Shown piece after piece: positions 4,761 through 28,452 of a stretch of 64,000 nt of DNA. The translations under genes were made by a program, and so were the position numbers. The stretch is from the NCBI GenBank assembly GCA_016930915.1, contig JAFGFU010000013.1:248001-312000 (forward strand). Reading direction: 5' to 3'. The notes under the pieces were generated by a model. That model was not told where the DNA came from, did not search any database, and saw nothing but the letters and a program-made list of their open reading frames with translations. Origin of the DNA: Campylobacterales bacterium. GTDB taxonomy: Bacteria; Campylobacterota; Campylobacteria; Campylobacterales; Sulfurospirillaceae. Numbering within the stretch: position 1 is the stretch's first letter; each line of letters starts with the position of its first letter.

Positions 4761-5863
4761 TACACAAGTCCCTTTGCTTTGTACTCATCGTACCACCATG
4801 GACGCAAAGGAATGACATCGCTTTCGCTAAACGCAAACCCGTATTTTCCACCGCTGTAAGGTATCATGCCCACAGCTTTAACATTGGGCTCAATGAGCTC
4901 ACATTTGTTGGCACAGGTGTAAAGACAGTCGTTGTGGCACGCTTTGTTTTCAATGGCGTCCAAGATATGCACACCCTGCTCCAACGCTTTGTCAAAACTG
5001 CCCGCTTCTTTGATATTGCCAAATTTGAGGTAAGGTAACCACAATAAACACGGATACAAATTGCCATACGGGTCAATGTCCATATTGCGACTTCCCATGT
5101 AGCAATTAAAATCAATATGTTGCCCCTCAAAAACCGCTTTTTGAAGCAAATATTTGCTCGCATAGCGCCCTTTGTCGTACCCAATCGCCCGTAATTGTCT
5201 ATCAATCAGTGCTAACTCTTCTTCGCTAAAGATAAAGTCGTCTTGGCTTAACACTTTTTTGGTAAGGTTGTCGGTTTTGTTGCGGTAACGATCAGGATTG
5301 TAACGCCCGTAACCGATGTAAAGCCCCACACCCATTTTTTTAGCAAATTCATACACCCACTCAATGAGATGTAAGTTTTCTTTATAAATCGTAAATTGAA
5401 ACCTCAACGCAACGCCTTTGATTTTTTTAAGGCGCTCAATCGTTTCGATGGATTTGGCAAAGCCGTCTTTATGCAAACGAATCTTCGCATGGGTCTGCTC
5501 ATCGCCATCCAAAGAGATATCGAGGCGAATAAGATTCATCTTTTTTAATGCATAACGGGCAATCTCTTCGTGACGTTCTGGGAACCACCCCGTAATGGGT
5601 GAGTCAATGACGGTGTCTGGATGATAGGTCGCAATGGAGTCAATCGCATCAAAGTATTTATCACTCAAATGGGGCTCGCCACCTGTAATGTGTACTTTCT
5701 TCAAATCCAAATATTTGGAGGAAAAGATGGAGTCCATCTCGCTTCGACTTAACTCTTCGTCTGTCTTTTTAGGCAATCGCCACATGGAACAATACCGACA
5801 AGGCCCTGGACAATACTCGCTGATGGTGTAAGAGATATCTTCTATTTTGTACCGATGAGGCAT
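4760..5863 (-). CDS. Radical SAM/SPASM protein (1 of 6 in the island)
   Basis: The cluster-binding motif is CPGPCRYC (CX3CX2C) near residue 20, and GGEP follows in HITGGEPHLS. The C-terminal third holds a SPASM-type cysteine set (DFNCYMGS, YPCLLWL, then CHNDCLYTCANKCE) expected to bind one or two extra iron-sulfur clusters. The role is presumably AdoMet radical chemistry on a sugar, lipid or peptide of the glycan pathway; the substrate cannot be read from sequence. The ATG at 5863 is chosen over a TTG at 5866 because AGGAGCC precedes it and it forms a TGATG overlap with the upstream gene. Confidence 0.85.
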   Translation of the reverse strand: MPHRYKIEDISYTISEYCPGPCRYCSMWRLPKKTDEELSRSEMDSIFSSKYLDLKKVHITGGEPHLSDKYFDAIDSIATYHPDTVIDSPITGWFPERHEEIARYALKKMNLIRLDISLDGDEQTHAKIRLHKDGFAKSIETIERLKKIKGVALRFQFTIYKENLHLIEWVYEFAKKMGVGLYIGYGRYNPDRYRNKTDNLTKKVLSQDDFIFSEEELALIDRQLRAIGYDKGRYASKYLLQKAVFEGQHIDFNCYMGSRNMDIDPYGNLYPCLLWLPYLKFGNIKEAGSFDKALEQGVHILDAIENKACHNDCLYTCANKCELIEPNVKAVGMIPYSGGKYGFAFSESDVIPLRPWWYDEYKAKGLV

Positions 5864-6810
5864 CAAGGCTCCTGTAATAATGTTCTAAAATAATCTATCG
5901 TGTGCTTCAAACCCTCTTCAAGCCCAACGCTAGGCTCCCAATCCAAATCTCGCTTGGCTTTGGTGATATCGGGTTTTCGCTGCATCGGGTCGTCTTGTGG
6001 CAAAGGCTTATAAATAAGCTCGCTTTTTGAATGCGTGTATTGTAACACTTTTTGAGCCAGTTCTAAAATGGTAAACTCACAAGGGTTGCCTAAGTTAATA
6101 GGACCACAAAGCCCTTGTGGGTTTTCCATCATCGCTATCATACCCTCAATCAAATCATCCACATAACAAAAACTGCGTGTTTGCGAACCATCGCCGTAAA
6201 TTGTAATGGGCTTGTTTTGTAAAGCTTGAACGATAAAATTACTCACCACTCGCCCATCATTGGGGTGCATTTTAGGGCCATAGGTATTAAAGATACGCAC
6301 CACTCGTATATCGACATTGTGCTGGCGTTGATAGTCAAAAAAGAGTGTCTCCGCACATCGCTTCCCCTCATCATAACACGCCCTTGGGCCAATCGGATTG
6401 ACCGCACCTCTGTATTCCTCTACTTGAGGGTGCACTTCAGGGTCACCATACACTTCACTCGTACTGGCTTGTAAGATTTTCGCTTTAGTGCGCTTGGCAA
6501 GCCCTAACATATTAATCGCTCCAACCACGCTCGTCTTCGTCGTTTGCACAGGGTCAAATTGGTAGTGAATGGGAGATGCTGGGCACGCAAGATTGTAAAT
6601 CTCATCGACTTCAACGTAAAGTGGAAACGTCACATCGTGACGCAAAAGCTCAAAATAAGGGTGCGATAACAGGTGTGCGATGTTGTGTTTGGAGCCTGTA
6701 AAAAAGTTATCGGCACACAAAACATCATACCCTTTATGCAACAACTTCTCGCACAAATGACTTCCTAAAAATCCCGAACCGCCTGTGACTAAAATACGTT
6801 TTCGTAACAT
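5863..6810 (-). CDS. UDP-glucuronate decarboxylase (UDP-xylose synthase-like)
   Basis: Extended SDR enzyme of 315 residues. It has the NAD-binding loop [12 protein letters not shown] at residues 8-19, a YDEGK catalytic motif (Tyr-X3-Lys) near 145, and the family stretch [15 protein letters not shown]. The latter is characteristic of UDP-xylose synthases, which oxidise and decarboxylate UDP-glucuronate. The product would be UDP-xylose or a 4-keto-pentose. No UDP-glucose dehydrogenase is in the window, so the substrate must come from elsewhere. Both ends overlap neighbours by one to three bases, indicating co-transcription. Confidence 0.83.
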
Positions 6811-7730
6811 TATTTTTTTCTCTCTTTGAGATAGTGTTGCACCACTTCTTTGTACGCCAATACCTTTTTTACAAAAGGAATGCGCATTTCTAAAAACAAA
6901 ACACGGGTATAGAGTTTTAAAAGTTCGTTATCGTAGTGTTCGTGGGTTTTAAACTCTTGAACCAAATGAAACGTATTGTGAAAAAATGCCTCATCCAAAC
7001 ATAAGGTTTCAACTGCTTTTTTCTTAACCGCACCAATGCGTTTGAGACGTGCATATTTTTTATCCGCTGGAATGGTTGTATTGTAATAACCGTTATTTCC
7101 ATGAATACGATACCGAGTCAGCGGTTGTGGGAGAAAATAGGCTCTCTCTAACATCGACGCACTAAACACAATAACATCATCGGCTTGAATACGCCATCCC
7201 TCCTCATCTTCGATGGGGAAAATCTTCATCACCAACGCTTTGGAGAGACTCAATGTAGAGGTAATATCGCCAACGTATTTGGAAATATAATAGACCAAAA
7301 AAAGATTGTAACCGTTGTAGGGGTAGCGAATGGTCTCGTACGACTTGGTGGCACCGTTTTCAAAAACCATTGTATGGTTGTTAAAGATATAGCTGTATCC
7401 CTGTGTGTAGGCTTTAACGACCTCTTCAACTTTATGAGGCTCAAACGCATCATCGCTATCTAAAAAACACAACACTTCTCCTTGGGCTAAAGCAACCCCT
7501 GCATTAAAGGCAGAAGCTTGACCGCCGTTTGTTTTGCAATGCGCCACAATGCGCTGAGGGTACTTCTGTGCATACTCCTGAAGCATAATAACGGAGGTAT
7601 CGCTTGAGCCATCATCCACCACGATGATTTCAATATGCGGATAGGTTTGTGCTAAAACAGACTCTATGGCTTCAGAAAGATAGGCAGCATAATTATAATT
7701 GTTAATCAACACCGAAACGAGTGGTTTCAT
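6810..7730 (-). CDS. Family 2 glycosyltransferase
   Basis: GT-A-fold transferase of about 306 residues. The N-terminus [18 protein letters not shown] leads into [10 protein letters not shown] (nucleotide-sugar contact) and [15 protein letters not shown] (metal-binding DXD-like). The start at 7730 gives the family N-terminus and an ATGA overlap with the upstream radical SAM stop; an upstream start at 7763 would add an unsupported 11-residue basic leader. Donor and acceptor are unknown; attachment of a sugar in flagellin or surface glycan is inferred from location. Confidence 0.85.
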
Positions 7731-8944
7731 TCTTCGACCTTTTCTTGCGCCTTGATAAACCATGTAGGATCAAGCACGCAAATGCCCAAATCAAACGCAT
7801 TTGCTTCCTCTTCTCCAAACACTGCAACATAATCATTATGAAATCCATCGCAAATATCTTGCACGCTACATGCTTTACATGTAAAGGTTTTGTGATACTC
7901 CAAATGCTTTTGCGCACGCAATTTTGCATTTTGTTTGTATAGAAACGTTTTGGGGATATCCGCACTGTGTAAGCGCATCATATGCTCCTTAATATCCACC
8001 TCTTTCATGTAGTGCGCTTTGGTTCCGTGTTCACTCATTACCGAAAAATCCATGCCGTTGAACTGCTTGATACCGTACATCAAAATAGGAATCGGCTCGT
8101 CAAGTTCGGGGGAGTTTGAGCGTTGGTTAAACCGTGTCGTCCATGTCCACGAATTAAAATCCCACTCGTGATGGTCATAGGAAAGTTGCTGAAAGTTATA
8201 CCCATTTTTAGCATAACGCTCTTCCAAAATACACAAAGGCAAATAACGCACATTCACCTCGATACGATGCGATTCTAAAAGGTCTATCGCTTTTTGCAGG
8301 GGCTCTTTGAGGGCACTATACGAGGGAACATCCTGCGCTTGACGTCTACCCTTTTGGTCTGCGAAGGGATTAAATGCAATAAAATTAACCACCAAACACT
8401 GCTTTTCAATCGCAAGGTGTGCAATCTTTTCAAGCTGAGAGAGCGCTTCTTTGGTCATGGTGCAATTCAGACGATACGGAATCTCTAAAGCATGAAGATT
8501 TGCTAGAGCTTGCATCTGTTTTTCACTGCCGTGTTTGAACCCTACCATCGTATCGTAGGCTTCCCCTAAGGCATGAATGCTCACTAAAAAATCATTTACC
8601 CCCGCTTCCCTGAAATGTAACGCCGTCTCTTTTTTGGCAAGAACAATGCCGTTAGTAATGAGTGTTGGTGCTAACCCAATCTCTTTACAATACGCAATCA
8701 GCTCAAAAATATGCGGATAAATCGTCGGCTCTCCGCCTTGAATATCCACCGCTGTATTGCCGTAAACATGGCGTAAGGTATGGCAGATTGTTTTCGCTTT
8801 TTCTAAGCTCATAAAGGCATGTTCGGGGTGTTCTTTATCATCAATCTTGGTTCTAAAATAGCAAAAGTAACATGCAAGATTGCACGTTTGCCCCAGCCAC
8901 AAGACACCTCGTCGAGTCAGAGTTCGTTTTTGCACTTTTTTCAT
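7727..8944 (-). CDS. Radical SAM protein (2 of 6 in the island)
   Basis: The 405-residue protein carries CNLACYFC (CX3CX2C) near residue 21 and a GGEP variant in DIQGGEPTIYP. A C-terminal cysteine group (FTCKACSVQDICDGF) suggests an auxiliary cluster. It lies between two family 2 glycosyltransferases with very short spacing. The substrate is unknown. A TTACATGTAA copy (7875) makes the Phe-Thr-Cys-Lys of that C-terminal group, so the palindrome sits in a probable cluster-binding segment. Confidence 0.85.
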   Translation of the reverse strand: MKKVQKRTLTRRGVLWLGQTCNLACYFCYFRTKIDDKEHPEHAFMSLEKAKTICHTLRHVYGNTAVDIQGGEPTIYPHIFELIAYCKEIGLAPTLITNGIVLAKKETALHFREAGVNDFLVSIHALGEAYDTMVGFKHGSEKQMQALANLHALEIPYRLNCTMTKEALSQLEKIAHLAIEKQCLVVNFIAFNPFADQKGRRQAQDVPSYSALKEPLQKAIDLLESHRIEVNVRYLPLCILEERYAKNGYNFQQLSYDHHEWDFNSWTWTTRFNQRSNSPELDEPIPILMYGIKQFNGMDFSVMSEHGTKAHYMKEVDIKEHMMRLHSADIPKTFLYKQNAKLRAQKHLEYHKTFTCKACSVQDICDGFHNDYVAVFGEEEANAFDLGICVLDPTWFIKAQEKVEE

Positions 8945-8950
8945 GGCAGA

Positions 8951-10105
8951 CTAATCATCCAATAAATCATAAATTTTAATCTCTTTACATGTAACTAATT
9001 TTTTATAGATACGATAAATATCCTGATATTTATAACTTGAAATCACAACGTGACCCTCGTGTTCTTGCTCTTGAAAGGTCTTAAAATCAATCGTATCCTT
9101 AAAGTGTGTCTTAAAATCGTCAATAAAGGCGTTAAATTTAGCGCCATTTTCCAGTAAAAACGTTTTTAACGCCAGCCCTGTCCAGCCTCGACCGTAAATA
9201 TAAATATCGTCTTGCGTTCCTACCTTTTTCAAAAATCGTTCAAAATTTTCGTGATTGCGTAGTCTCTCTTTCTCCGATAAGATGGCACTAAAAACCCACT
9301 CTACCCGTTGATTGAGTGCTTGTTTAATCACCTCTTTTAAACGAGGTTCCATAACATTTTGTTTTAAAAAGGCTTCCATATCAAAGACAAAAGCAAGGTT
9401 GTATTGTGCCTGTTTGACCAAATCATCTCGGTTAGCATTACTAAGCGTATCTTCTTCTGGGAAACGCCAAACATACCCAACAACATCGATAAAACAAATC
9501 GTTCCCGCTAACGTGGCACTTTTAAAAATGACCGAAGCATCAATGGTTGATGACTCTTCAAACAAAGAGCTAAACGCGTTAATCTGGGTAAGTAAATTTC
9601 GCTCAAAAAGAATGGAACTCAGTGAGAAATAATCTGAAAAATTGGAGCGAACCTCCATCCACCATTCAAAAAATTCACGAGGGGAGTAAGAGGGTTTAAA
9701 CGCATAGTGATGTAAAACACTTTGTTGCGAAGTTTGAATACGTGTCTTACTAATCACCATACGGCACGAGGCATTCTGCTCAAATTGCTCTACGGCTTTT
9801 TCAAAAAAAAGAGAATCCCCTAGCGTGTCATCATCTGAGATAAAAATAACATACGCTCCTGTCGCGTGAGAGAGCGCAAAATGGCTGTTTTGAGTGTACC
9901 CTATATTTTTTGGTGTTCGAAGATAGCGAACCAAAGGAAAATCTTCCACTATTTTACATGTAAAGTCCGTCGAGCAATCGTCACTGACAATCACTTCTAG
10001 GTTCGTGTAGCTTTGCTCATACACTTTTTGCAAAGCGATTTTTAACAATTCATAGCGATTATAGGTTGTGATAATAACACTAACCAAAGGATTTGATTTT
10101 TTCAT
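8951..10105 (-). CDS. Family 2 glycosyltransferase with C-terminal Rossmann-like module
   Basis: Residues 1 to about 230 form a GT-A domain (NPLVSVIITTYNRYELL, VIVSDDCSTD, VIFISDDDTLG). The last 90 residues form a separate module with YIYGRGWTGLALKTFL followed by FIDD, the same pattern seen in four further proteins of the island. The ATG at 10105 (after AAGAGGTCT) is preferred over a GTG at 10120. The gene start overlaps the end of the family 9 transferase gene by 26 bases. Two TTACATGTAA copies (8985, 9954) encode Val-Thr-Cys-Lys and Phe-Thr-Cys-Lys. Confidence 0.82.
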   Translation of the reverse strand: MKKSNPLVSVIITTYNRYELLKIALQKVYEQSYTNLEVIVSDDCSTDFTCKIVEDFPLVRYLRTPKNIGYTQNSHFALSHATGAYVIFISDDDTLGDSLFFEKAVEQFEQNASCRMVISKTRIQTSQQSVLHHYAFKPSYSPREFFEWWMEVRSNFSDYFSLSSILFERNLLTQINAFSSLFEESSTIDASVIFKSATLAGTICFIDVVGYVWRFPEEDTLSNANRDDLVKQAQYNLAFVFDMEAFLKQNVMEPRLKEVIKQALNQRVEWVFSAILSEKERLRNHENFERFLKKVGTQDDIYIYGRGWTGLALKTFLLENGAKFNAFIDDFKTHFKDTIDFKTFQEQEHEGHVVISSYKYQDIYRIYKKLVTCKEIKIYDLLDD

Positions 10106-10955
10106 AGACCTCTTCAACACTAATCTGAGACATTGTCTCTTTTTGAATCACCTGACTGTGGTAAAAGCAAACCTCACGAGAGGAGGTCGGACCAAAAAGT
10201 GCCACCACTTTCTTCCCAAGCGCTAGAGCAATATGAAGCCCTAAACTGTCACTTGTGACAATGATGCGATTGGCATTAATCCAATCAATATATTCGTATA
10301 AATTCTCTAAGCCCTCTTGCCATGAAATCGTATAATCTTCTTTGCGCAACATACCCTCAAGCGCTTTCCAGTTCGCATCATCCCACGCTTTATGCGGAAA
10401 TTTTGGTCCTACTTTGTAGTTAAACCCTACATCGTTCACTTCGGTTGTTTTGGGCTTGTAGCCTAAAATATACGGCTGTTCTTCCCATGTTCCGCCCACC
10501 ATCTCGATGAGCACTTGTTGCCAAATTTTGTCATTGTTTTTTTTGATTTCATGTTTGGTACACAAATCAAAAGCGTACTCGCTTCCCTCATAGACATCGT
10601 AACTTCCCCTCATCTCATCAAAGCGAAAGCCATACTTTTTCCATGCGTTGATGCGGTTGGTAATGGCACAAAGCCCTGGAATTTTTTCCAAATTAATCAC
10701 CACATCAAAACGCTCTTCTAAAAGTTGAAAACCCACAAAACTATCCCATACTAAAATACGGTCAATGTATTTATTGCCTTTTAAAAGCGCAAAAGGCGCA
10801 TCATCAACCAGCCATGTAATATGCGATGAGGGATACTGCTGTTTAAGAGTGTGTAAAATAGGGGTGGTGCGTAACACATCGCCCAAAGAGCTAAAACGGC
10901 TTATCTCTTCGTCCAATGTTTCAGAGAATCCTAATTTAATAATGAGAATTTTCAT
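10080..10955 (-). CDS. Family 9 glycosyltransferase (heptosyltransferase-like)
   Basis: GT-B protein of about 291 residues. The N-terminus MKILIIKLGFSETLDEE with LGDVLRTTPILHTLKQQYP is the typical GT9 opening. Near the C-terminus, IVTSDSLGLHIALALGKKVVALFGPT is the ADP-sugar-binding half. The start at 10955 is fixed by AGGAAA six bases upstream; a longer frame from 10985 lacks a binding site. It may add a heptose-like sugar to surface glycan or lipooligosaccharide; the donor is not determinable. Confidence 0.85.
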   Translation of the reverse strand: MKILIIKLGFSETLDEEISRFSSLGDVLRTTPILHTLKQQYPSSHITWLVDDAPFALLKGNKYIDRILVWDSFVGFQLLEERFDVVINLEKIPGLCAITNRINAWKKYGFRFDEMRGSYDVYEGSEYAFDLCTKHEIKKNNDKIWQQVLIEMVGGTWEEQPYILGYKPKTTEVNDVGFNYKVGPKFPHKAWDDANWKALEGMLRKEDYTISWQEGLENLYEYIDWINANRIIVTSDSLGLHIALALGKKVVALFGPTSSREVCFYHSQVIQKETMSQISVEEVYEKIKSFG

Positions 10956-10963
10956 ATAATTTC

Positions 10964-12334
10964 CTATGAAGAAAAATCTAAACAAGAAATATTTTTATTA
11001 TTTAACTTAACATTGTTTTGGTGTTCCGTTATATTTTCTAACGAATGCTTATCAAATGCAAAATTATAACCATTAATGATTTCCACATTAATCTCTTTGG
11101 GTAAAATAGCTTCAATTCTTTTTAAAATCTTTTCATAATATTTATAATGTACTGCTACGATAATCACATCATAATAAATGCTATCTTCCAATAAGAATTT
11201 AGGATCTCTTGCCCCTAATGATTTTTTTTTATCATCGTAAATATATTTTATTTCTACGCCGAACAAAGCATCTTGTAAAAAAGCTGAATACACCCCAGCG
11301 CCATAAATAACTACTCGTTTGCTCAATAAATAGTTTTTTAAATTTTGTATGAAACTATTGGCTTCAACATCTTGATATTTTATTAAAGACCTCTTATTAT
11401 ATTGGACAATTTTGTAACGCATACAACTTCTAAATTCTTCCATTTCTTCGTTATTAATATAGGGTTTGCTAGTAGTATACCCTAACTCCTTCAAATGCAG
11501 TTTATAAGTTTTCTCATACCCATCATAAAATTCTTTGGGAAGAAAATTCATCCACTCATTCATCTTTGGAGAATTATTATAATGAGCAAAATATTTGTTT
11601 TGAGATGGAAAATCATGTAACTCTTTATAAAATAGTTTTTCAATAATTATTTCAATTGCATTTTTAGAAATAGTAACATCAAGATATTTACACAATTTTT
11701 CTATTTCTCCAACAGGATCTAATAACAATTTTTCATACTGAATACCAAAAAATTCTTGTTTGTTTTTCAAATACTCGCTAGTATGCATTGCCCAATTTTT
11801 AAGAATCAAATCTATATTATTTATCATTGCATAATTGACTTTTTGAAACTTAGATTGAGAATTTAAATGTCTCATCATATTATAAGTTCTATTTGTATTG
11901 TGAAGAAATTTCATATAAGAATTTACAACATCAAGTCCATCTCTATAAATATACACTTTTTTCTTAATCTTCTTTAATAATTTATTTCTACAAATAGCAC
12001 TAGGAAAAACATGACTATTGTAAATACAATCTATATCAATCATCTGATGTTCAACGATATCTGTTACATCAATATTCATACCATCTATAATCACACCTTT
12101 TTCATTATGAAAGTTTGCTCTTACAAACAAAGAATAATCTTCTACTTGATACAAACCTGTGGGGATTAAATTCTGACCTATTGCATTGCCTGCTTCCTTT
12201 AAATAAACCTGAAAATCTATAGTACTATTTAATTCTTCAATTAAAAGTTTTTTCTGTGTAATCTCTCTAATAATATTTCGAATTAATACAGTACCTGATT
12301 TAGGAAACGACAACACAACAATACTATCCATCAT
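10964..12334 (-). CDS. Sulfotransferase-like protein with C-terminal Rossmann-like module
   Basis: The N-terminal PAPS 5'-phosphosulfate loop reads SFPKSGTVLIRNII (canonical PKSGT), and the 3'-phosphate site appears as YRDGLDVVNSYMKF near residue 130-145. The C-terminal 100 residues carry VVIYGAGVYSAFL then YIYDDKK, the shared module of this island. Together they suggest an enzyme transferring sulfate from PAPS to a sugar. PAPS synthesis genes are not in the window. The gene is strongly AT-rich, has no TTACATGTAA copy, and starts the anomalous 10964-17387 stretch. AAGG seven bases upstream supports the first of two tandem ATGs. Confidence 0.75.
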   Translation of the reverse strand: MMDSIVVLSFPKSGTVLIRNIIREITQKKLLIEELNSTIDFQVYLKEAGNAIGQNLIPTGLYQVEDYSLFVRANFHNEKGVIIDGMNIDVTDIVEHQMIDIDCIYNSHVFPSAICRNKLLKKIKKKVYIYRDGLDVVNSYMKFLHNTNRTYNMMRHLNSQSKFQKVNYAMINNIDLILKNWAMHTSEYLKNKQEFFGIQYEKLLLDPVGEIEKLCKYLDVTISKNAIEIIIEKLFYKELHDFPSQNKYFAHYNNSPKMNEWMNFLPKEFYDGYEKTYKLHLKELGYTTSKPYINNEEMEEFRSCMRYKIVQYNKRSLIKYQDVEANSFIQNLKNYLLSKRVVIYGAGVYSAFLQDALFGVEIKYIYDDKKKSLGARDPKFLLEDSIYYDVIIVAVHYKYYEKILKRIEAILPKEINVEIINGYNFAFDKHSLENITEHQNNVKLNNKNISCLDFSS

Positions 12335-12351
12335 AATATAACCTTGCTAGT

Positions 12352-13089
12352 TCATGATATTAAATTTATAAAATTTTGCTTCTCTTTATTCTGTTTTTTA
12401 ATCAGTGCATAATGACAATAATGATGTTCTCTTAATGAAAATCTAAACTTTAAAGAATTCACGGCGAGTTGAAAAATACTCTTAAATCGATTAACGCCTT
12501 TATCTGACAAGTGATAAAATTTATCTTTAACTTCTTCTGAATCAAAATAATCTTTCATACATTCATTATACAAATCATATGAACTATGAATTGTAAAAAC
12601 ATTTTGTATGTGATATAAATTCTTCCAAAGATTATAATTTTTTTCATAATATAATTTATCAAAAGCCTCTTTAGTAGAACATTTATCCGATAGAGGATAT
12701 TCAGGATAAAAAAGTAATTTATGCTGAAACAACCAATCAAAAAAGTATCGATTTGTTTTATTCCATGTTAAAAAAATATCAACATTAGAAGCTGCCACAG
12801 AGATAAGATTTTCATTATAATAACAAAGACGAGAATGACTTTTTTCTTTCATAAAATCATCAAAGCAAGAGAATACAATATAAATAACATTAGGATTTTC
12901 TTCAAGCAAAGTGAAAATTAAATTACATTCTTCTTCTGTTTGTGCACCTTCACTACTAACCAAAACATAATCAAAAGAACTTAATTTTAGAACATTGATT
13001 ACCACTTCTCTAATATCATGCACTACACACTTTTTTTTTAAATTAATACAAAAATTTACATTTTGAAGGTATGTTCGGATGATACTCAA
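12352..13089 (-). CDS. Unrecognised AT-rich island protein, TTG start
   Basis: No family recognised. The 245-residue protein has alternating hydrophobic strands in the first half (FDYVLVSSEGAQTEEE, VIYIVFSCFDDF), suggesting an alpha/beta fold. The second half is rich in aromatic and basic residues (Tyr, Phe, Lys, His). No signal peptide or membrane segment is evident. The frame opens at a TTG preceded by GGGAG. It is co-directional and closely spaced between the sulfotransferase-like and SGNH genes and shares their AT-rich codon use, so it probably belongs to the same pathway. The function is unknown. Confidence 0.6.
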   Translation of the reverse strand: MSIIRTYLQNVNFCINLKKKCVVHDIREVVINVLKLSSFDYVLVSSEGAQTEEECNLIFTLLEENPNVIYIVFSCFDDFMKEKSHSRLCYYNENLISVAASNVDIFLTWNKTNRYFFDWLFQHKLLFYPEYPLSDKCSTKEAFDKLYYEKNYNLWKNLYHIQNVFTIHSSYDLYNECMKDYFDSEEVKDKFYHLSDKGVNRFKSIFQLAVNSLKFRFSLREHHYCHYALIKKQNKEKQNFINLIS

Positions 13090-13104
13090 TAATATAATCT
13101 CCCA

Positions 13105-14457
13105 CTAAACATTTAAATTTCTTGCTATATAATCAGTTAAAATGTTATTCCCTTTAGCGTTTAAATGAATATAGTCATCAAATAATGCATCTTTACAGTT
13201 TTCAATTAAAAAATTTAAATTATCATAATGTTTTAAATACTTTTGCTCTGCTAAAGATCGATCTAAGAAATCAATCAAAAAAGGAATTTTTTGCATTATA
13301 TATCCATAATCTGGACTAGCAGACTCGATTAACCAATTATTATATTTTTCCCTTTCCTTCTCATGCCATACTTTTTTTAGAACTAAGGAAGGTTCCAAAT
13401 AAGCAAAAAAAGGAATTCCAAGACTCTGCACAATTCTGGAAAACTGATTTAATCGAAAAACAAGTGACTGGATAATAGCCTCATCCTTTATATACTTATT
13501 AACCATTTTTGCTTCACCCAATAGTGGAATATTAGACTTATAAAATCCCTTAATTTCTTTTTCAATATAATGGAAATAATGTAAATGATTATCTGAAAGC
13601 AATTTTTCACACATAAAAAAAGAGTTTACTAAATCAAAACCAAATAAAGATACTACGATTTTAGGCTTTAACTTTTCAGCCAATAAAATAAAAAGTTGCA
13701 TCTGATGTGTTAATGTTGATGCATTAATAGACAAATTAAGCACTGTAAAATTTCGACCTTTGATAGTTTTCAATTTTCTTTCTAATTGTTTGGGAATAGT
13801 ATCATTATCTCCTACTGTTACACCATATGTTTGACTGTCCCCAAAGACACAAATCAGTTCAGACTCACGATAAAATTCCCTATCCCAAATAATTTTTTCT
13901 CTAAATCCAAAAGGATCATTAGCATTATTCAAAATTTGATTTGCAAAAAAAGGATACCACTTGAACTTGACTTCTATTTTTGACGTTTTATAGAGTTCAG
14001 TAAAGATATCCTCATTTTTTGAATACAATTCATTTTGTATCCTGGCATAATTCAATTTTGCTTCATTTAAAATACGATGATACTCTTTAGAAACATCTTG
14101 CAACTTTGATTTCAAGCAATCAGACTTCTGCGAATCATTTTTGATAAATGCTATAAAGTCATTTGAAGATGACCAAATTGTTTGAATTAAATTTTGTGTT
14201 TCCTCATAAAAATAAACTCCTTGATAGTATCTAATATTGTTTTGTTCTATATTGTACATTTCAAGTTTATTTTGCATATTTTGCAAAATATCGTATCTTT
14301 CTGCGCAGAGAAAAATTATTTCACATAAACATAATTTCTCTAGTTGATTATATGCATCATCATAATCATCAAAAATACAATACTCTATTGTTAAAACTTC
14401 AAATAGCTTTTTTAAATTTTTACCTATAACACCATGTCCATAGATCCCTATTGTCAT
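13105..14457 (-). CDS. Rossmann-like module fused to SGNH/GDSL hydrolase
   Basis: The N-terminal module IGIYGHGVIGKNLKKLF then CIFDD (residues 3-32) is the island's shared domain. After a polar helical linker comes an SGNH-hydrolase domain: CVFGDSQTYGVTV holds the block I Gly-Asp-Ser nucleophile near residue 200, and DDYIHLNAKGNNIL near the C-terminus supplies the Asp-X2-His pair. This suggests an esterase or O-acetyl transferase/esterase acting on a glycan. The start at 14457 gives an ATGA overlap with the upstream gene. No signal peptide is seen, so cytoplasmic action is likely. Confidence 0.75.
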   Translation of the reverse strand: MTIGIYGHGVIGKNLKKLFEVLTIEYCIFDDYDDAYNQLEKLCLCEIIFLCAERYDILQNMQNKLEMYNIEQNNIRYYQGVYFYEETQNLIQTIWSSSNDFIAFIKNDSQKSDCLKSKLQDVSKEYHRILNEAKLNYARIQNELYSKNEDIFTELYKTSKIEVKFKWYPFFANQILNNANDPFGFREKIIWDREFYRESELICVFGDSQTYGVTVGDNDTIPKQLERKLKTIKGRNFTVLNLSINASTLTHQMQLFILLAEKLKPKIVVSLFGFDLVNSFFMCEKLLSDNHLHYFHYIEKEIKGFYKSNIPLLGEAKMVNKYIKDEAIIQSLVFRLNQFSRIVQSLGIPFFAYLEPSLVLKKVWHEKEREKYNNWLIESASPDYGYIMQKIPFLIDFLDRSLAEQKYLKHYDNLNFLIENCKDALFDDYIHLNAKGNNILTDYIARNLNV

Positions 14458-15758
14458 ATATTGTTCTTTATGATTGGATAATACAAACAATCATGGCAAA
14501 TTCGTGGAGGAAATATTGAGTAAATTTTTTGTTTAAAATCAATGTACTTTTTACTCTTTAAAATAGTTTTTAGAGAACTTCTTTCTATTGTTCCAAAGTT
14601 CTGTTCATGGTGATCACAAATCATGCAACAGGGAACAAGGTACCCTAAAACATTAAAATTTAACGCATCTTCAAACAACGTACATTTATCATTCTTTCTT
14701 CTATACTCATAAGAATTAATTACCATTGTCTCAAATGAAAAACCACTTGCCAATTTTTCCCAATATAGAAGGCTCTTTTCCTCAACTTCTATATTTTTAT
14801 TATACAAATCAATAATAGGAGCCAAATGAATATTCTGAACACCGAATTTTTCTAATTGCTTTAAAATTGATGGTAACTCATGCTCATTATATTGACTAAT
14901 TGAAATACGTACTGCGATTTTATTCTTTAATGACTCGATGTTTAATAGAAAAGTTAAATTATCAATCAACTCTTCTATTTTTGTCCCTTTTCTTGTTTTA
15001 TTTAATGTATTTTCTTCAAATGAATCAATACTCACTATTAACAAATCTAATCCATGATTAAACAAATCTAAATAATACTCTTTTGTAGAAGAAAGCAAAT
15101 TAGTATGAATCTCTATTCTATGAAATTTATGAACTTTTTTTGCATAACTAATCATATCTAGCAATTCAGGATTTAACGTCGGTTCACCAACGTTCTGAGG
15201 ACACAGAACAAACTGTTTTATATATGGAATCGAGTCAACAATTTTTTTGAAAAGCTTAAAAGACATATGTTTATTTTTTGACTCATACTCATTGAAAGTA
15301 CGAAAACAGTGATTACATTTTAAATTACAATATGTTGTTGTTTCTATATATACGTAATTAATTCTTTCTAAATCTATAAATGGATAGTCTTCACAAATTT
15401 TTTTTTGCTCATCAAAATATTCTATCCTTAGATAGCTCTCTATTCTATCCTTCATAATTGCTTGTAAAACTTTTTTTCGATGCGCAAAAATATATCCCTT
15501 CATTGTTGAAGAAAAAAAACATTCTGTATAAAAAGTAATTTCTCTATATAAAATACTTTTCTTCTTTAATTTATCTAACATATCTTTTCTATACTCTTCA
15601 TGAGCACTACAAATTACGACTTTATCATAAACAATGCTGTTTTCATTTTTTGTTTTTTTTAAAGAATCATCCAATATGTCATAATTGATTCCAACAATTT
15701 GTAATAAATTTTCAAAATTTTTTCCAACAATACCATAACCGTAAAGGAGAATTCTCAT
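14454..15758 (-). CDS. Rossmann-like module fused to radical SAM protein (3 of 6)
   Basis: The first 85 residues (RILLYGYGIVGKNFENLL then YDILDD) are the shared module and closely resemble the N-terminus of the next gene. The radical SAM domain follows with CNLKCNHC (CX3CX2C) near residue 160 and a variant second motif, NVGEPTLNP. C-terminal cysteines (VPCCMICDHH, CHDC) suggest a SPASM-like auxiliary site. I prefer the ATG at 15758 over a TTG at 15770. This joining of a nucleotide-binding-like module to AdoMet radical chemistry is unfamiliar to me. Substrate unknown. Confidence 0.78.
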   Translation of the reverse strand: MRILLYGYGIVGKNFENLLQIVGINYDILDDSLKKTKNENSIVYDKVVICSAHEEYRKDMLDKLKKKSILYREITFYTECFFSSTMKGYIFAHRKKVLQAIMKDRIESYLRIEYFDEQKKICEDYPFIDLERINYVYIETTTYCNLKCNHCFRTFNEYESKNKHMSFKLFKKIVDSIPYIKQFVLCPQNVGEPTLNPELLDMISYAKKVHKFHRIEIHTNLLSSTKEYYLDLFNHGLDLLIVSIDSFEENTLNKTRKGTKIEELIDNLTFLLNIESLKNKIAVRISISQYNEHELPSILKQLEKFGVQNIHLAPIIDLYNKNIEVEEKSLLYWEKLASGFSFETMVINSYEYRRKNDKCTLFEDALNFNVLGYLVPCCMICDHHEQNFGTIERSSLKTILKSKKYIDFKQKIYSIFPPRICHDCLYYPIIKNNI

Positions 15759-15779
15759 TTTTTTATCCAAATTTTTATC

Positions 15780-17387
15780 CTAAGAAATTAAACAGATCAC
15801 TAACTGTGTGCATTTTTCTTTAATCCTCTTATAAATCTTCTCTCCATATAATGAAGAATTAATAATAATACAATCTAAATTTTTTAAATTATAGTCTTCA
15901 ATTTTTTTTATATTGATTCCATATATAGCAGTACCTTGTTTATGTTCAGCATCATCAAAAACAACTTGTATACGATGCGCATCTAACCCCATTAAGTTCA
16001 TAACCATTTTTGTATCATCCCCGGCACCATAAATTGCAATTCTTTGATGCTCATTTAAACATTTATCAAATTGTTCTATCTTGCTCTTATAACGTTCTAC
16101 ACACGAAATAAATCGTTTTCCTTCACCTAAAACATTCAATAAGTTTTTCAAATTCTCTATTATTTCCCGTTTATTATCTCGGTTACACTTGTCCAAATCA
16201 GGAATATTTAACTCACATTTTTCAATAATTTTCCGATGAGCAAAACAAAATTTTTTTAAAGAATCATTAAAACTTTTAAGTTTGCCTTGCTCCTCATTTA
16301 AAATCATCATTTGTATTTCATCCCAATCAAATTTCTCATTAAATGCTTCTTGAATCAGTTTGATTGTTTGTAATGTCTTATATTCATACTTCTTAGCTTT
16401 TTTTAAAGCTTTCGTTACATTTTTCTCTGATAAATATACTCTCCCCTCTCTCGAAAAAGAAGTAGTTACAAAAAATGAATTGATATGTTTATTTATATAC
16501 AAGGCATTATCAATAAAATTAAAAACTCCTCCAAAATTTTCATAAAAAGTAGATTTTTGTTTTTTAGAGTCAACGGAAGATAGAAAAAACAATCTCGTAT
16601 CTTCAATATAATATATGTCTTCATTGTTAGTTATGTTTTTTTGAATAAATAAGCTATTATCCCAAGTTCTTTCATTAGGAATAGCATAAAAATCTTTCTC
16701 TAAAAAAATAACCAATGGATGCAAGATGTTCATTTTTAAAACATAACCCATTTGATCTTTAAAGAACATATTACCTGTAGCAAAATAATTTTCTGATTCA
16801 ACAAAGGAATTCAAAGACATGGCATGAAGATTCTTAAAAACTATAGAGCAAAAATCATAATAATTGATATCTATTGACTTATAATTACTATGTTGACATG
16901 AATACTGATTAAAAATCGTTTGAATAGCTTCTAATTCTGCATGAACTCCATAAGATAGGAATACTTTTTTATCTTCATGCGTATTAACAATTTTTTTTAA
17001 ATTTTTTAATGCACCATCAAATAAAATAGAATCTGGCATAAGAAAGCAATGCCCTATCCCTTCTTGATTCACTAATCTAATTGCTTCATTATGACAAGCA
17101 GTCATTTTTTTAAATTCCTCATTAAAAACTGACACTATATTGATATCATTCGTACAACATTCATGATAAATATATCTTAAATCAACCAACTCAGCTAACT
17201 TTTTAAAATTTTGAGAATTAAAAAATATTTTTTCTTCTTTTTTAATACAAAGCGTAAAAATAGGTCTCTCATATAATATGTCAATATTATTTTTTGAAAG
17301 AAGTAACGGTACGCATAAATTTTGGAATATATCAATATATTCTTTGCCCCAAATAGGTACAATAAAATGAAATTTCGTTTGCCTCAT
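15780..17387 (-). CDS. Probable glycosyltransferase-like protein with C-terminal Rossmann-like module
   Basis: The 535-residue protein begins with FHFIVPIWGKEYIDIF and contains FLMPDSILFDGALKNL near residue 115, a layout reminiscent of GT-A transferases but without a clear DXD motif. A helical middle part leads to a C-terminal module with IAIYGAGDDTKMVMNL then VVFDDAEH, matching the island's shared domain. Its ATG overlaps the methyltransferase stop by one base (TAATG), so it is translationally linked to the following module. The function is uncertain; glycosyltransferase is a guess from fold-like features. Confidence 0.5.
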   Translation of the reverse strand: MRQTKFHFIVPIWGKEYIDIFQNLCVPLLLSKNNIDILYERPIFTLCIKKEEKIFFNSQNFKKLAELVDLRYIYHECCTNDINIVSVFNEEFKKMTACHNEAIRLVNQEGIGHCFLMPDSILFDGALKNLKKIVNTHEDKKVFLSYGVHAELEAIQTIFNQYSCQHSNYKSIDINYYDFCSIVFKNLHAMSLNSFVESENYFATGNMFFKDQMGYVLKMNILHPLVIFLEKDFYAIPNERTWDNSLFIQKNITNNEDIYYIEDTRLFFLSSVDSKKQKSTFYENFGGVFNFIDNALYINKHINSFFVTTSFSREGRVYLSEKNVTKALKKAKKYEYKTLQTIKLIQEAFNEKFDWDEIQMMILNEEQGKLKSFNDSLKKFCFAHRKIIEKCELNIPDLDKCNRDNKREIIENLKNLLNVLGEGKRFISCVERYKSKIEQFDKCLNEHQRIAIYGAGDDTKMVMNLMGLDAHRIQVVFDDAEHKQGTAIYGINIKKIEDYNLKNLDCIIINSSLYGEKIYKRIKEKCTQLVICLIS

Positions 17388-18523
17388 TACAACGTTTCCT
17401 TACAAAAAGACAGAAACGTCTGCCCTCGCCCAAATAAAGGCTTCATGGTGCATAATTGCGAAACATCATGGGTCGTTAAATTTTCTTTTTGCACTATCTC
17501 AATGACTTCATGAATACTTACATGTAAAGAAGAATCAACCTCCAAAAGATTGTCTGCAATACGTTTTAAAAGGGCTATTGCATCTTCTTTTGCATATGTT
17601 CCATCATGTTTTTCCAACGATTTGACCACTTCGATGAGCTCTTTACATGTAAGGCTTAATGCTACATTTTTTTCTGCCGAGCATTTATCGTATGTTTGGG
17701 CACTGTTGATAAAATTATGCCTTTGGGTATTAAATTGTTCTAAATAATACGCATTGTATTCCAAAGGGTTATGAGGAAGTGCTTTGTACCAACGAAAATC
17801 GTGGAAGACATTGGGACTTGCGCCGTAAAAAAAGTACTCGTTTTGAAAAAGTGTTATCGCATCGGCAACGCTAAAGGTGTGATTGTAAATGGCATCGCAT
17901 AGCAAATCCGCACACCAATCATCATAACGCCTTGTCATGCCTTTAAGCGTCTCTAAATGCGGGCTAAATGCCTCAACCAAGATGGCAATTTGTTTTTTAA
18001 AGTCTTTTTCATCTTTAATCAACTCGTTCGCCAAATAACGACGAAGAATTTCAAAAAACATCGAAATTTCATCGGCGACAGTGATAACCAAAACACCACC
18101 CTCTTTTACCAAAGAAGAGAGCTTGGTTAAAAATACCTCTCGGTTAGGCAATCCTTGAATCAGCCCTTCGCACATCACAACATCAAAGGACTCTTTACAT
18201 GTAAAGTCTTCTAAAAAGGTATTGTGAAATTCAACATTTTCATTAAATCCATGGGTGGCAAAATTGTTTTTTAGCTCTTGAAATCCTGTCGAATTTGGCT
18301 CAACCAAGACATATTTTGAAGGCTTAAAGCTGTAGGTTACTAAGGCGTTATACCCGCCTCCAGGTCCTACTTCTAACACTTTTTTACCCTCAAAATTAGC
18401 TCTAAGCAACCCTAACTGGCGATAAAGCCCTTCTCTTCTTTTCACATGTAACGCAAAATCATCAATATTTTGACGCACGGGAGATATTTTATTTTTTTCA
18501 TAAAAATTGACATATTCGTTCAT
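17387..18523 (-). CDS. Class I SAM-dependent methyltransferase
   Basis: Motif I is VLEVGPGGGYNAL near residue 50, followed by an acidic VLVEPN strand end and FDVVMCEGLIQ (post-motif). The remaining 200 residues are helical and of unknown role. The protein probably methylates a sugar or glycan precursor. ATG at 18523 (TGATG overlap with the SDR stop) is chosen over TTG at 18526. Three TTACATGTAA copies lie inside (17518, 17643, 18195), in contrast to the adjoining AT-rich stretch, which has none. Confidence 0.8.
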   Translation of the reverse strand: MNEYVNFYEKNKISPVRQNIDDFALHVKRREGLYRQLGLLRANFEGKKVLEVGPGGGYNALVTYSFKPSKYVLVEPNSTGFQELKNNFATHGFNENVEFHNTFLEDFTCKESFDVVMCEGLIQGLPNREVFLTKLSSLVKEGGVLVITVADEISMFFEILRRYLANELIKDEKDFKKQIAILVEAFSPHLETLKGMTRRYDDWCADLLCDAIYNHTFSVADAITLFQNEYFFYGASPNVFHDFRWYKALPHNPLEYNAYYLEQFNTQRHNFINSAQTYDKCSAEKNVALSLTCKELIEVVKSLEKHDGTYAKEDAIALLKRIADNLLEVDSSLHVSIHEVIEIVQKENLTTHDVSQLCTMKPLFGRGQTFLSFCKETL

Positions 18524-19257
18524 CAAACACCCCCTTCTAACGCAATAATAGAACCCGTTGCTTGCATACTTTCGATGCTAAAAAGAGCACTAACATAGGG
18601 TGCTATCTCTTCTGGCATCGCAAAACGACCCAGTGGCATTTGCGCTTTTCGAGTCTCATATTTTTGAGGTTCATTCATGCGTTTTGCACTCCACTCGCTT
18701 CCCTCATGTTCCAAAATGGAGGGAACAACCGCACACATCATGATGTTCTCTTTCGCATAATAGCGAGCACTGTTTTTCACATAAGTATGAAGTGCCCCTT
18801 TACTAATGGCATACGCAGGCGATGCGTTACCATTAAACGCCGCACTGGAGCCGATATGCACGATTTTTCCACCGCCTTGGGCTATCATGCGAGGAATCAT
18901 GCGATTATTGATCTCAATCCCTACCTCAACATTGAGTCGCATCGAAGCTTGCAAAGTCTTTACATGTAAAGGCTGAACATCGTCTTTGACTTTTCCACCT
19001 AGATTGTGCACCACACCGTAAAGCGAAATGGCATGCGCTTTTAAAAAAGCATCTAACGCTTCTATCGCATCTTCTTTCGTTAAATCATGGCAAAACAGAG
19101 AGTGTTTCTCTTGTGACGGTAGCTGCGTAAACGCATTTTGAAGGCTTGCACCGTCACGCCCGTTTAAAATCACGCTAAAGCCATTCTTTGCAAGCTCTTT
19201 GGCAATCGCTAATCCAAGCCCCTTGCTCGAACCCGTCACTAAAATCACTTTAGACAT
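18523..19257 (-). CDS. Short-chain dehydrogenase, PtmA-like
   Basis: Classical SDR of about 244 residues: VTGSSKGLGLAIAKEL (TGXXXGXG cofactor loop) at residues 8-23, the NLGG segment near 85, and Ser-Tyr-Lys catalytic residues in IGSSAAFNGNASPAYAISKGA. It should reduce or oxidise a sugar hydroxyl/keto group with NAD(P). It resembles PtmA-type SDRs of flagellin modification loci in Campylobacter; the identity of its sugar is inference. The ATG at 19257 overlaps the upstream stop (TGATG). A motif copy at 18960 encodes Pro-Leu-His-Val-Lys. Confidence 0.82.
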   Translation of the reverse strand: MSKVILVTGSSKGLGLAIAKELAKNGFSVILNGRDGASLQNAFTQLPSQEKHSLFCHDLTKEDAIEALDAFLKAHAISLYGVVHNLGGKVKDDVQPLHVKTLQASMRLNVEVGIEINNRMIPRMIAQGGGKIVHIGSSAAFNGNASPAYAISKGALHTYVKNSARYYAKENIMMCAVVPSILEHEGSEWSAKRMNEPQKYETRKAQMPLGRFAMPEEIAPYVSALFSIESMQATGSIIALEGGV

Positions 19258-20327
19258 CACACAAATCCTAAATGGTCATTATCCACGCTCAAATAATCTA
19301 AAATCATCTGGTTTTTATGGTTGGAAACACAATGGTTTTTACAGTGAATTTTGGGATTGATTTTAAAAAATTTCGACTTATCCTCAAACCAAAACTCCTT
19401 AAAACGCTTCTCTTTGATAGAACCTACCAAACCGTTTTCGAGGTTATACGCTTTATCTTGACACGGATAGATATTCAAATCCGCCCCGATAACAGGCAAT
19501 ACTTGCGAATAAGGGCACCATGTGTAGTCCTTATCAAATTTATCTTCCAAAAGATGGTACGTGTCGTAAATCTCAAACGACGCATCTTCAAGTTCTGCTT
19601 TTGCCCTTTTGGCTTGGGCTTTGACTTCATCGTAAATGGGCTGATGGTAAGCGTTATTTTTTGCTCCTTCATTGTCCACCACGCATCCTGAGAGTTTAAT
19701 GCTATTGGCTCCCGTGGATTTGATGAGTTTGATGAATTCATACACATGTTGGTAATTTTTCTGGTCGATAATAAAACTCACCCCCAGAGCACATGCCCCG
19801 CCGTACGCCTTAAAATCACGCATATTTTGAAGCACTTTGCTAAAAGCGTTTTTGCTAGTGCCTCGATACTGCGCATAGCTCTCATCATCCCAACCGTCCA
19901 TGGAAACACGCACCCATTTAGCATGTTTCGCAAAAATCTCAGCCACTTCGCCTTTTAAATTCGCACCATTGGTCAAAGAGGCAAATGCGATAGGAGAGTT
20001 GGCAAGCTTTTTGGCGGTTTGAAGCATGTACTGATAAACAAAAGGCTCTCCGCCACCGCTAAAGGTAATGGCTTTGACCCCCATCTCAATACAATCGTCA
20101 ATAATTTCCATCATCTTCGCTTCAGGAATAAAATCTTTTTCCACCATATCTTGCCCAAGCTGTAAATTATCAACCTTATAGGCACAGTACCAACAGTTGT
20201 GATTGCAAACATTGGTGGGTTTGATGCGAATGTGCAAAGGGGCTTTGACCTCTTGCACCTCTTTAGGCAACGAATCGACTTTGTCTTGAAAATGAAAAAT
20301 TTTTAGTTGTGAATATTTAGATGCCAT
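19257..20327 (-). CDS. Radical SAM/SPASM protein (4 of 6)
   Basis: CNHNCWYC (CX3CX2C) near residue 40 binds the radical SAM cluster; a GGGEP motif follows in TFSGGGEPFVYQ. C-terminal cysteines (WCPYSQV, IYPCQDKAYN, IHCKNHC) fit a SPASM domain. The start follows GAGGGAACA. It sits in a tight module with an SDR, two methyltransferases, a split transketolase and two more radical SAM genes, suggesting a single sugar-building pathway. Substrate unknown. Confidence 0.85.
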   Translation of the reverse strand: MASKYSQLKIFHFQDKVDSLPKEVQEVKAPLHIRIKPTNVCNHNCWYCAYKVDNLQLGQDMVEKDFIPEAKMMEIIDDCIEMGVKAITFSGGGEPFVYQYMLQTAKKLANSPIAFASLTNGANLKGEVAEIFAKHAKWVRVSMDGWDDESYAQYRGTSKNAFSKVLQNMRDFKAYGGACALGVSFIIDQKNYQHVYEFIKLIKSTGANSIKLSGCVVDNEGAKNNAYHQPIYDEVKAQAKRAKAELEDASFEIYDTYHLLEDKFDKDYTWCPYSQVLPVIGADLNIYPCQDKAYNLENGLVGSIKEKRFKEFWFEDKSKFFKINPKIHCKNHCVSNHKNQMILDYLSVDNDHLGFV

Positions 20328-20335
20328 TGTTCCCT

Positions 20336-20998
20336 CTACTCAAAATAGATAAACTCGTAATCCCCGCTGTAGCCAAACGCTTCATACAGCCACACCCACT
20401 CATCGGGTCCAAAAAAGCTCTCGCATGTCAAAGCCCAACACTCTAAATTAAAGAGTTCCGTGTCGTTACGGTACGCTTCCACCATCACAAACTTCTCTTT
20501 GCCCACACGCTCTATCTCTTGCAATGCTTTTTTTAAATCATAAATTTTCAGATTGTGCAACGCCCCTAGTGAGATGACCAAATCAAACGCCTTATCCTCG
20601 TAAGGATACACATCTTGCGCCTTATGGATAAAAAGATGCTCTTTGATCTCTTCTTTGGCATTTTCAATTGCGTAAGAAGAGATATCAAAACCTTGAATGC
20701 TGATCTGTGGCAAGAGTTGTTTGAGCTCATAAAGCAAAAACGCCTTTCCACACCCGACATCTAAGATTTTAGACTCATTAGTTAAGTGATACTGCTCGAT
20801 TAAATCCTCCGCCACACTTCTCCATCTGCCATCGTACGTATACCCACCGTATCCAAAGCGTCTATCGCCGTCCCAATAATCAAACCCGTACTGTTTGGAT
20901 TTTTCCATACAAGCGACTTTATCATCAACCATACGCTCAATATACTGGCGTGTCGTTCTTTTATGAAGTTTCGTAAAAACATCGCGTAATTTACCCAT
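20336..20998 (-). CDS. Class I SAM-dependent methyltransferase
   Basis: Methyltransferase of 220 residues: ILDVGCGKAFLLYEL (motif I) near residue 78, GFDIS (acidic motif II), and FDLVISLGALHNL (motif IV region). No membrane segment. It overlaps the transketolase C-terminal subunit gene by eight bases. It would methylate an intermediate of the island's glycan pathway, by context only; small-molecule, lipid or protein targets cannot be told apart. Confidence 0.8.
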   Translation of the reverse strand: MGKLRDVFTKLHKRTTRQYIERMVDDKVACMEKSKQYGFDYWDGDRRFGYGGYTYDGRWRSVAEDLIEQYHLTNESKILDVGCGKAFLLYELKQLLPQISIQGFDISSYAIENAKEEIKEHLFIHKAQDVYPYEDKAFDLVISLGALHNLKIYDLKKALQEIERVGKEKFVMVEAYRNDTELFNLECWALTCESFFGPDEWVWLYEAFGYSGDYEFIYFE

Positions 20999-21884
20999 GA
21001 AGTACCCTTTCTACAATCGCTTTAGCATCAATGCCAAAACATTTTCTCAAGTATGCACAATTGCCTATTTCGTGGATAAAATGGTTCTTGATGGCAATTT
21101 TTTCAATCCTTACATGTAAAGATTTTTCTTGTGCAAAATCACGCAACATCGTCCCTAGTCCTCCTTCTTGAAAATGCTCTTCCACCACGTAAACATGCTC
21201 GTATTGGCGCAACAACGCTTCCACTGCCGCTTCGTCAAAGGGAAAAATGAGCGGCATCGAGATAATCGCTACATCATCTAGTGCTTTGGACGCTTCTAAA
21301 ACCTCATCGACGATAGAGCCGTGAAAAATAATCGCTTTGGTCTTCCCCTCTTTTACATGTAAGGGTTTTGTGATGTCTATACTATCGTCAAACAATACAG
21401 GCTCACCGCTACGAGAGATGCGAATAAATGTAGGATTGGAGCTTGCGATGGCATACTCCATCGCCTTTTGCACTTGCATCGGATCAGAGGGTGAGATAAT
21501 GTTCATATTGGGCAAGGTTCGTGCCAACGCTATATCTTCCACACTGTAATGCGTCATACCTGAGGGCGCATAGGTCAGCCCTGAGCCAATGCCCACAAGC
21601 ACCACAGGCAGGTTTTGATACGCAATGTCGATGCGTACTTGCTCATAATTGCGCATGATGAGAAAAGGAATGATGTTATAAATAAACACCTTATGCCCAC
21701 TCAGTGCCAATCCAGCAGCCAAGCCGGTCATCGCCGCTTCGTTAATGCCCGTGTTAATGTACTGTTTGGGAAGTTGCTCTTGAAACGCTTCCCACACACC
21801 AAAACCCGCATCGCCCGAAATGAGAAAACCATCTTCATGGTTTTGACAATACTCAAAAATCTTTTTTGCGGCACTATTTCTCAT
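20991..21884 (-). CDS. Transketolase, C-terminal (pyrimidine-binding) subunit
   Basis: The protein carries the thiamine-diphosphate pyrimidine-binding half and the C-terminal domain of transketolase. GINEAAMTGLAAGLAL holds the conserved Glu that activates the cofactor, and THYSVEDIALART a conserved His; the ~300-residue length is normal for a split subunit. It partners with the gene just upstream (ATGA overlap). Because the pair lies within a glycan island, it probably adds or removes a two-carbon unit on a specialised sugar rather than serving the pentose-phosphate pathway; that is inference. Motif copies: 21110, 21353. Confidence 0.85.
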   Translation of the reverse strand: MRNSAAKKIFEYCQNHEDGFLISGDAGFGVWEAFQEQLPKQYINTGINEAAMTGLAAGLALSGHKVFIYNIIPFLIMRNYEQVRIDIAYQNLPVVLVGIGSGLTYAPSGMTHYSVEDIALARTLPNMNIISPSDPMQVQKAMEYAIASSNPTFIRISRSGEPVLFDDSIDITKPLHVKEGKTKAIIFHGSIVDEVLEASKALDDVAIISMPLIFPFDEAAVEALLRQYEHVYVVEEHFQEGGLGTMLRDFAQEKSLHVRIEKIAIKNHFIHEIGNCAYLRKCFGIDAKAIVERVLHG

Positions 21885-22675: not shown

Positions 22676-22687
22676 TTACACCCTTTT

Positions 22688-28330: not shown

Positions 28331-28378
28331 TAACCTTTTATCTCATCTAGCCCTTTTAAAAGCAAGAACTATACCCAT

Positions 28379-28415
28379 AAAAAAAGGGTAGATGGGGTAC
28401 CCCACCTACCCTTTT
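28379..28415 (-). terminator. Intrinsic terminator after flagellin
   Basis: A near-perfect inverted repeat (28382-28398 with 28399-28415, one G-T pair, centre GTAC) is followed on the - strand by seven T. It lies 38 bases past the flagellin stop, so it should end the flagellin message before maf. Confidence 0.85.
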
Positions 28416-28452
28416 AAGAAACGTTCCCGTAGCTTACGCTACTTTATTTAAA

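Follow-up and report, generated by a model that had tools for sequence, protein, structure and literature searches.

A Rossmann-like, probably nucleotide-binding module shared by five unrelated enzymes of a flagellin-glycosylation island in a Campylobacterales genome

Five unrelated proteins of one locus carry a homologous module

A 64,000-nucleotide stretch of a Campylobacterales genome (positions 248,001 to 312,000 of contig JAFGFU010000013.1; hereafter the window, to which all coordinates refer) contains a flagellin-glycosylation island in which a small Rossmann-like module is attached to five proteins of different catalytic types. The module lies at the C-terminus of a family 2 glycosyltransferase (GT2), a sulfotransferase and a 535-residue protein (p535), and at the N-terminus of an SGNH/GDSL protein and a radical SAM/SPASM protein (Table 1). 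An earlier reading made from the sequence only had named these five open reading frames (ORFs) and their motifs, and all were found where it had placed them. Catalytic motifs are in place in the sulfotransferase (PKSGT; Pfam Sulfotransfer_1, E = 2.9e-20), the SGNH protein (GDS and DxxH) and the radical SAM protein (CxxxCxxC), and the GT2 protein has a full-length homologue with 37% identity in the same genus. For the SGNH protein, the probable start codon is the ATG at 14457, which overlaps the stop codon of the radical SAM gene, and not the TTG at 14490. Residues 1-430 of p535 belong to no recognised family; its residues 5-91 have a 32%-identical stretch in a 498-residue frame of another genome (locus L092 of genome G024; L and G numbers designate the loci and genomes compared).

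Table 1. Modules and surrounding features of the window
Feature	Coordinates	Strand	Details
GT2 C-terminal module	8954..9217	-	ORF 8951-10120, residues 302-389; IYGRGWTG...FIDD
Sulfotransferase C-terminal module	11054..11338	-	ORF 10964-12334, residues ~333-427; IYGAGVYS...IYDD
SGNH/GDSL N-terminal module	14215..14457	-	ORF 13105-14490; IYGHGVIGKN...FDD
Radical SAM/SPASM N-terminal module	15519..15770	-	ORF 14454-15770, residues 1-84; LYGYGIVGKN...LDD
p535 C-terminal module	15792..16067	-	ORF 15780-17387 (535 residues), residues 441-532; IYGAGDDT...FDD
AT-rich five-gene block	10964..17387	-	GC 25-27%, GC at third codon positions (GC3) 16-21%; holds ORF 12352-13089 and all module genes except that of GT2
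Flagellin-glycosylation island	3696..29913	-	DUF354, six radical SAM proteins, epimerase, glycosyltransferases, methyltransferases, short-chain dehydrogenase/reductase (SDR), split transketolase, Maf, flagellin
Maf-type transferase	26444-28330	-	Part of the island
Flagellin gene	28453-29913	-	Part of the island

Several lines of evidence confirm that the shared module is genuine. The pattern [ILVM][YFHW]G.G...-..[DE][DN] matches exactly the five named ORFs among all window ORFs, where residue shuffles predict 0.11 proteins per window, a contrast that is weak by itself because the pattern was fitted to the finding. When hidden Markov models (HMMs) were built from four modules each, the left-out segment outscored all 2000 of its own shuffles in every case, by a narrow margin for p535. 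An independent HMM, for which 35 modules from other genomes and no window rows were used, was then scored on all window ORFs: the five named ORFs took the first five ranks (E = 5.8e-17, 3.2e-16, 2.3e-12, 9.7e-12 and 5.8e-10), while the sixth-ranked ORF reached only 0.022. With an HMM free of window rows, the sulfotransferase segment scored 1.2e-11, against 7e-4 for the best of 5000 shuffles. Smith-Waterman comparison gave z = 14 for the SGNH and radical SAM N-termini, which had been called homologous from their motifs and are so, and z = 9 for the sulfotransferase and radical SAM modules; the other pairs have diverged too far for pairwise detection. The claim that five unrelated catalysts carry one homologous Rossmann-like domain is thus upheld by the ranking of the independent HMM, and the profile comparison proposed with it recovered all five segments in both HMM designs.

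Fold and relatives of the module

AlphaFold modelled the GT2 module with a predicted local distance difference score (pLDDT) of 93.7, and the SGNH protein with a pLDDT of 81.8 (about 88 within the module) and a predicted template-modelling score (pTM) of 0.63. In both modules the elements follow one another as strand-helix-strand-helix-strand-helix-strand, at spacings that match. Structure prediction, another check put forward with the sequence-only reading, therefore supports a common fold for the two modules folded of the five; for the sulfotransferase, radical SAM and p535 modules, the same fold is predicted from the profile match. All matches listed in a fold search with the full-length SGNH protein are to the SGNH domain, so that this search by itself bears on that domain and not on the module.

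A family profile made from 40 diverse modules was searched against the PDB. Its first match is 3nkl, deposited as UDP-D-quinovosamine 4-dehydrogenase (E = 4e-13), followed by PglD (6e-7), Pcryo_0637 (2e-5) and VioB (0.0025). Structure comparison with the GT2 module returned 3nkl (Z = 11.5), Rex (10.9), WbaP (8t53; 10.5, with an rmsd of 2.6 over 90 aligned residues), GDP-perosamine N-acetyltransferase (10.4), PglD (10.1, with 28% identity over 79 residues), the N-domain of FkbM 2py6 (9.9) and Pcryo_0637 (9.7). In the Pfam scan, the p535 module scored 33.8 bits against PF08484 (Methyltransf_14; cut-off 23.5) and is by score a member of this C-terminal domain of C-methyltransferases, although no methyltransferase domain appears among the Pfam and NCBIfam matches of p535. 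The other four modules did not match PF08484, none of the five met the gathering cut-off of 23.4 for PglD_N (PF17836; best p535, with 14.5 bits), and no window protein matched CoA_binding_3 (PF13727) up to an E-value of 10. Scanning our genome collection with the radical SAM and SGNH modules gave a single confirmed match, the N-domain of MurD, with 33% identity over residues 2-81. This domain, which belongs to a Mur ligase and whose likeness to the module is based on one SAR86 sequence, binds the UDP part of UDP-MurNAc-L-Ala.

The modules are members of a known Rossmann-like group, comprising PglD_N, the domain of unknown function (DUF) of WbaP and PglF, the C-methyltransferase C-domain and the FkbM N-domains, which is used mostly, though not solely, by nucleotide-sugar enzymes. 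The settings of these relatives differ from those in the window. The PglD N-domain of the NeuD/PglD/VioB sugar N-acetyltransferases has the fold of the module but is fused to a left-handed beta-helix acetyltransferase. Similarly, the CoA_binding_3-type DUF shares the fold, and PglF segments join the module family profile, but it is located inside membrane phosphoglycosyl transferases or dehydratases, with a domain-swapped beta-hairpin in WbaP. Finally, FkbM-type methyltransferases share the fold and module-FkbM fusions are present in the sampled genomes, whereas the window block contains no FkbM protein.

Phylogeny of the modules

In approximately unbiased (AU) tests, monophyly of the five window modules was rejected (p = 0.0023), as was a clade of the four modules encoded in the AT-rich block (p = 0.0135), and the tree and these tests speak against a single recent module duplication within the locus. 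The GT2 module joins GT2 modules from other genomes (support 100/95), the p535 module also joins modules from other genomes, and the sulfotransferase module is unplaced. Only the SGNH and radical SAM modules, which are sisters (99/91) inside a clade of SGNH-associated modules, represent a recently shared module among the five. Another pair of sister modules on adjacent genes with different catalysts is found in G159 (GT9 and methyltransferase, 99/93). Copying of the module between neighbouring genes thus seems to occur.

The tree is structured both by catalyst type (17 changes, against 26.6 after shuffling) and by locus (31 changes, against 38.4), none of 300 shuffles being as low in either case. 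Grouping by locus beyond chance, together with the two pairs of adjacent sister modules and the dimer of WbaP that is mediated by its DUF (PMC10942596), could point to docking or oligomerisation tags that pair with one another and so bring a pathway's enzymes together. We regard this as quite unlikely, given the two rejected clades, the structure by catalyst type and the location of the conserved residues in the ligand loop (see below). The sequence-only reading had offered a docking tag as one possibility; a tag confined to a single pathway is not supported, given the rejected five-module monophyly, the conservation in the ligand loop and the spread of the domain over many islands and catalysts.

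The module recurs in sugar-gene islands of other genomes

The search for further module proteins and their neighbourhoods, also suggested with the sequence-only reading, yielded many, clustered in sugar-gene islands. Module-like matches were detected in 103 of 200 genomes of the same order, many of them PglF or PglD; the module is not unique to its source genome. After exclusion of PglF and PglD by frame length, and considering genomes with at least two module genes, a second module gene lies within 20 kb in 48 of 57 cases, with 3 expected under random placement, a generous null model since sugar genes cluster anyway. Islands elsewhere in the order combine four to six module enzymes of differing class (GT2, GT4, GT9, methyltransferase, TylF, FkbM, radical SAM, GSCFA, HAD). 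For example, L104:1001-11925 (G159) packs six module genes, of which five are adjacent, into about 11 kb; they encode two GT4, a GT9, a methyltransferase, a TylF and one unassigned protein. L103:2232-16987 (G356) holds five (two radical SAM, two FkbM and one GT2), as does L105, and L037 and L052 hold four each. Several L104 modules belong to a subclade with a conserved GREEEI and without the second Asp, which is also present in G120, G172, G331 and G365.

Individual fusions of the window recur unequally. The module-radical SAM protein is not a singleton, as L103:2232-3515 encodes a full-length homologue (23.6% identity over 433 columns, E = 2e-13). The fusion of the module with SGNH is likewise conserved in another genus, and it is seen again in another family (f14). 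Genes for it in that family contain poly-G/C tracts of 9-16 nt or TC repeats, in some cases directly after the module, with many frameshifted copies (L039, L040, L041, L048, L049, L087, L096, L097, L100 and L101). Phase variation of these genes is thus probable; the window gene has no such tracts or repeats. No relative of the sulfotransferase-module protein or of full-length p535 was detected among the 249 genomes searched, tblastn of plasmids with the SGNH and sulfotransferase queries gave no match, and neither did a contig scan of the genome collection with SGNH alone as query.

The AT-rich block and its surroundings

Because its GC and GC3 contents are far below those of neighbouring genes (GC 37-45%), the block that carries four of the module genes is probably recently acquired DNA. 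The gene for the GT2-module protein lies outside it and has a GC content of 37%. The fifth gene of the block, ORF 12352-13089, encodes 245 residues with an HLSDKG motif resembling the C-terminal block of SGNH hydrolases, and has no Pfam or NCBIfam match. In another genome of the same genus (L095 of G405), the SDR and methyltransferase genes of window positions 17387-19260 recur and are followed by a different set, namely a methyltransferase with a C-terminal module, an SGNH protein without module and a radical SAM protein. The site of the acquired block thus seems to be a variable one within the island. The island unites six radical SAM proteins with a split transketolase, and NeuB and GNAT genes lie just outside it.

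The conserved site and its probable ligand

Across the 40 modules, conservation is confined to the GxGxxG loop and to the D(D) that ends strand 2, and does not extend to the outer surface: D39 is present in 40 of 40, Y14 in 39, G15 in 38, G17 in 34 and D40 in 30. In Pcryo_0637 and PglD, the domain binds UDP, with Asp41 (Asp36 in PglD) touching uracil and Asp40 (Asp35) the ribose (PMC8040287). The 40-module profile aligns the DD of the modules with these aspartates (FLDDFK of PglD with FIDDFK of the GT2 module), so that the GxG loop region and the DD pair at the UDP site are common to PglD and the modules. In addition, the DUF of WbaP is stabilised by UMP, UDP and UTP (PMC10942596). A nucleotide or nucleotide-sugar, supported by homology, would be the likeliest common factor of the five modules, with a uridine (or thymidine) nucleotide likeliest because the DD matches the uracil- and ribose-binding pair of PglD. 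CMP-sugars would be less likely than these if the second Asp contacts N3-H of the base as in PglD. The sequence-only reading had proposed a common ligand, either a sugar nucleotide or NAD-like: the former is backed by the PglD site and by nucleotide binding in WbaP, and the latter is less favoured.

Four observations weigh against this assignment or its precision. The NADH-binding Rex and TrkA/Kef score nearly as high as the nucleotide-sugar enzymes (Z = 10.9 and 9.2; E = 3.5e-4 and 2e-4). The second Asp is replaced by S, L, Q, E, K or R in 10 of 40 modules, and uridine specificity is therefore not general. UDP-, dTDP- and GDP-linked sugars are all ligands within the superfamily, which leaves the base uncertain. 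Finally, Ser13 of PglD, a ribose/phosphate contact, is Gly in 34 of 40 modules, including all five of the window.

The first of these points raises the possibility that the Rossmann domain binds NAD(P) or senses redox state. Modules share the canonical GxGxxG and the acidic end of strand 2 with Rex and TrkA, and the motif cannot separate NAD from UDP; yet the five catalytic classes can all do without NAD(P), the closest sequence profiles belong to nucleotide-sugar enzymes and the second Asp matches the uracil-contacting Asp of PglD, so we hold this to be highly unlikely. It also appears very unlikely that the module binds no ligand and is a structural relic or an aid to solubility: the glycine loop is lost in some relatives, such as the GT2 modules of G134 with LYPENSWR, but ligand-loop residues are the most conserved across very diverse fusions. 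In the GT2 modules of G134 and G111 (L012, L011 and L039:10365-10652), the loop reads YPENSWR, YPHTHYT or YGENSWR and the DD is kept.

Substrate anchoring or nucleotide sensing

From the homology, the fold of two modules, the conserved site, and the recurrent fusion and clustering, all computed here, we consider it rather probable that the modules are compact nucleotide(-sugar)-binding Rossmann-like add-on domains, recruited several times by enzymes of surface-glycan islands, in this case a flagellin-glycan island. The GxG/DD site would hold a nucleotide or nucleotide-sugar, most likely of uridine (or thymidine). In the tailoring enzymes (sulfotransferase, SGNH esterase or acyl-transferase, radical SAM protein and p535), the module may anchor the nucleotide of a nucleoside diphosphate sugar, which would be presented to the neighbouring catalytic domain for modification of the sugar. 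At the step in question, the glycan precursors of the island would then be linked to uridine or thymidine. In the GT2 protein, the module more likely senses free nucleotide, as proposed for WbaP, because the GT-A domain should already bind the donor. Anchoring thus appears likelier for tailoring enzymes and sensing for glycosyltransferases.

The main alternative, which is possible although rather unlikely, is that sensing applies throughout: the modules would bind free UMP or UDP and switch all enzymes of the pathway allosterically instead of holding substrates. WbaP offers a precedent, as it is inhibited by UMP (IC50 4.1 uM) and its DUF was proposed to sense free nucleotide, a regulation that the authors suggested extending to PglF (PMC10942596). 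Moreover, GT2, GT4 and GT9 domains carry the module yet should need no second donor site, and the module is common to several catalysts per island. On the other hand, PglD, Pcryo_0637 and probably MurD employ the domain for substrate, which argues against sensing throughout. A broader proposal sees in the module a general unit for nucleotide sensing or substrate presentation, copied by bacteria between neighbouring unrelated enzymes of glycan islands; a whole pathway, with its transferases, sulfotransferase, acyl-esterase, radical SAM proteins and methyltransferases, would then be controlled or fed by one nucleotide signal. This strikes us as doubtful at present.

Significance

The domain itself was already known, while its range of fusions and its clustering in islands are undescribed as far as we found; our literature search found no described generalisation of it, an absence that is weak evidence. 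Glycan islands are annotated by catalytic domain, and this accessory domain goes mostly unnamed in Pfam scans. Recognition of its nucleotide site provides a testable ligand for several enzymes that await characterisation, among them radical SAM and SGNH proteins whose substrates are unknown, and extends the uridine-sensing idea of WbaP from membrane initiators to soluble enzymes. The module thereby makes it possible to examine if one regulatory or substrate-handling input serves an entire glycan pathway.

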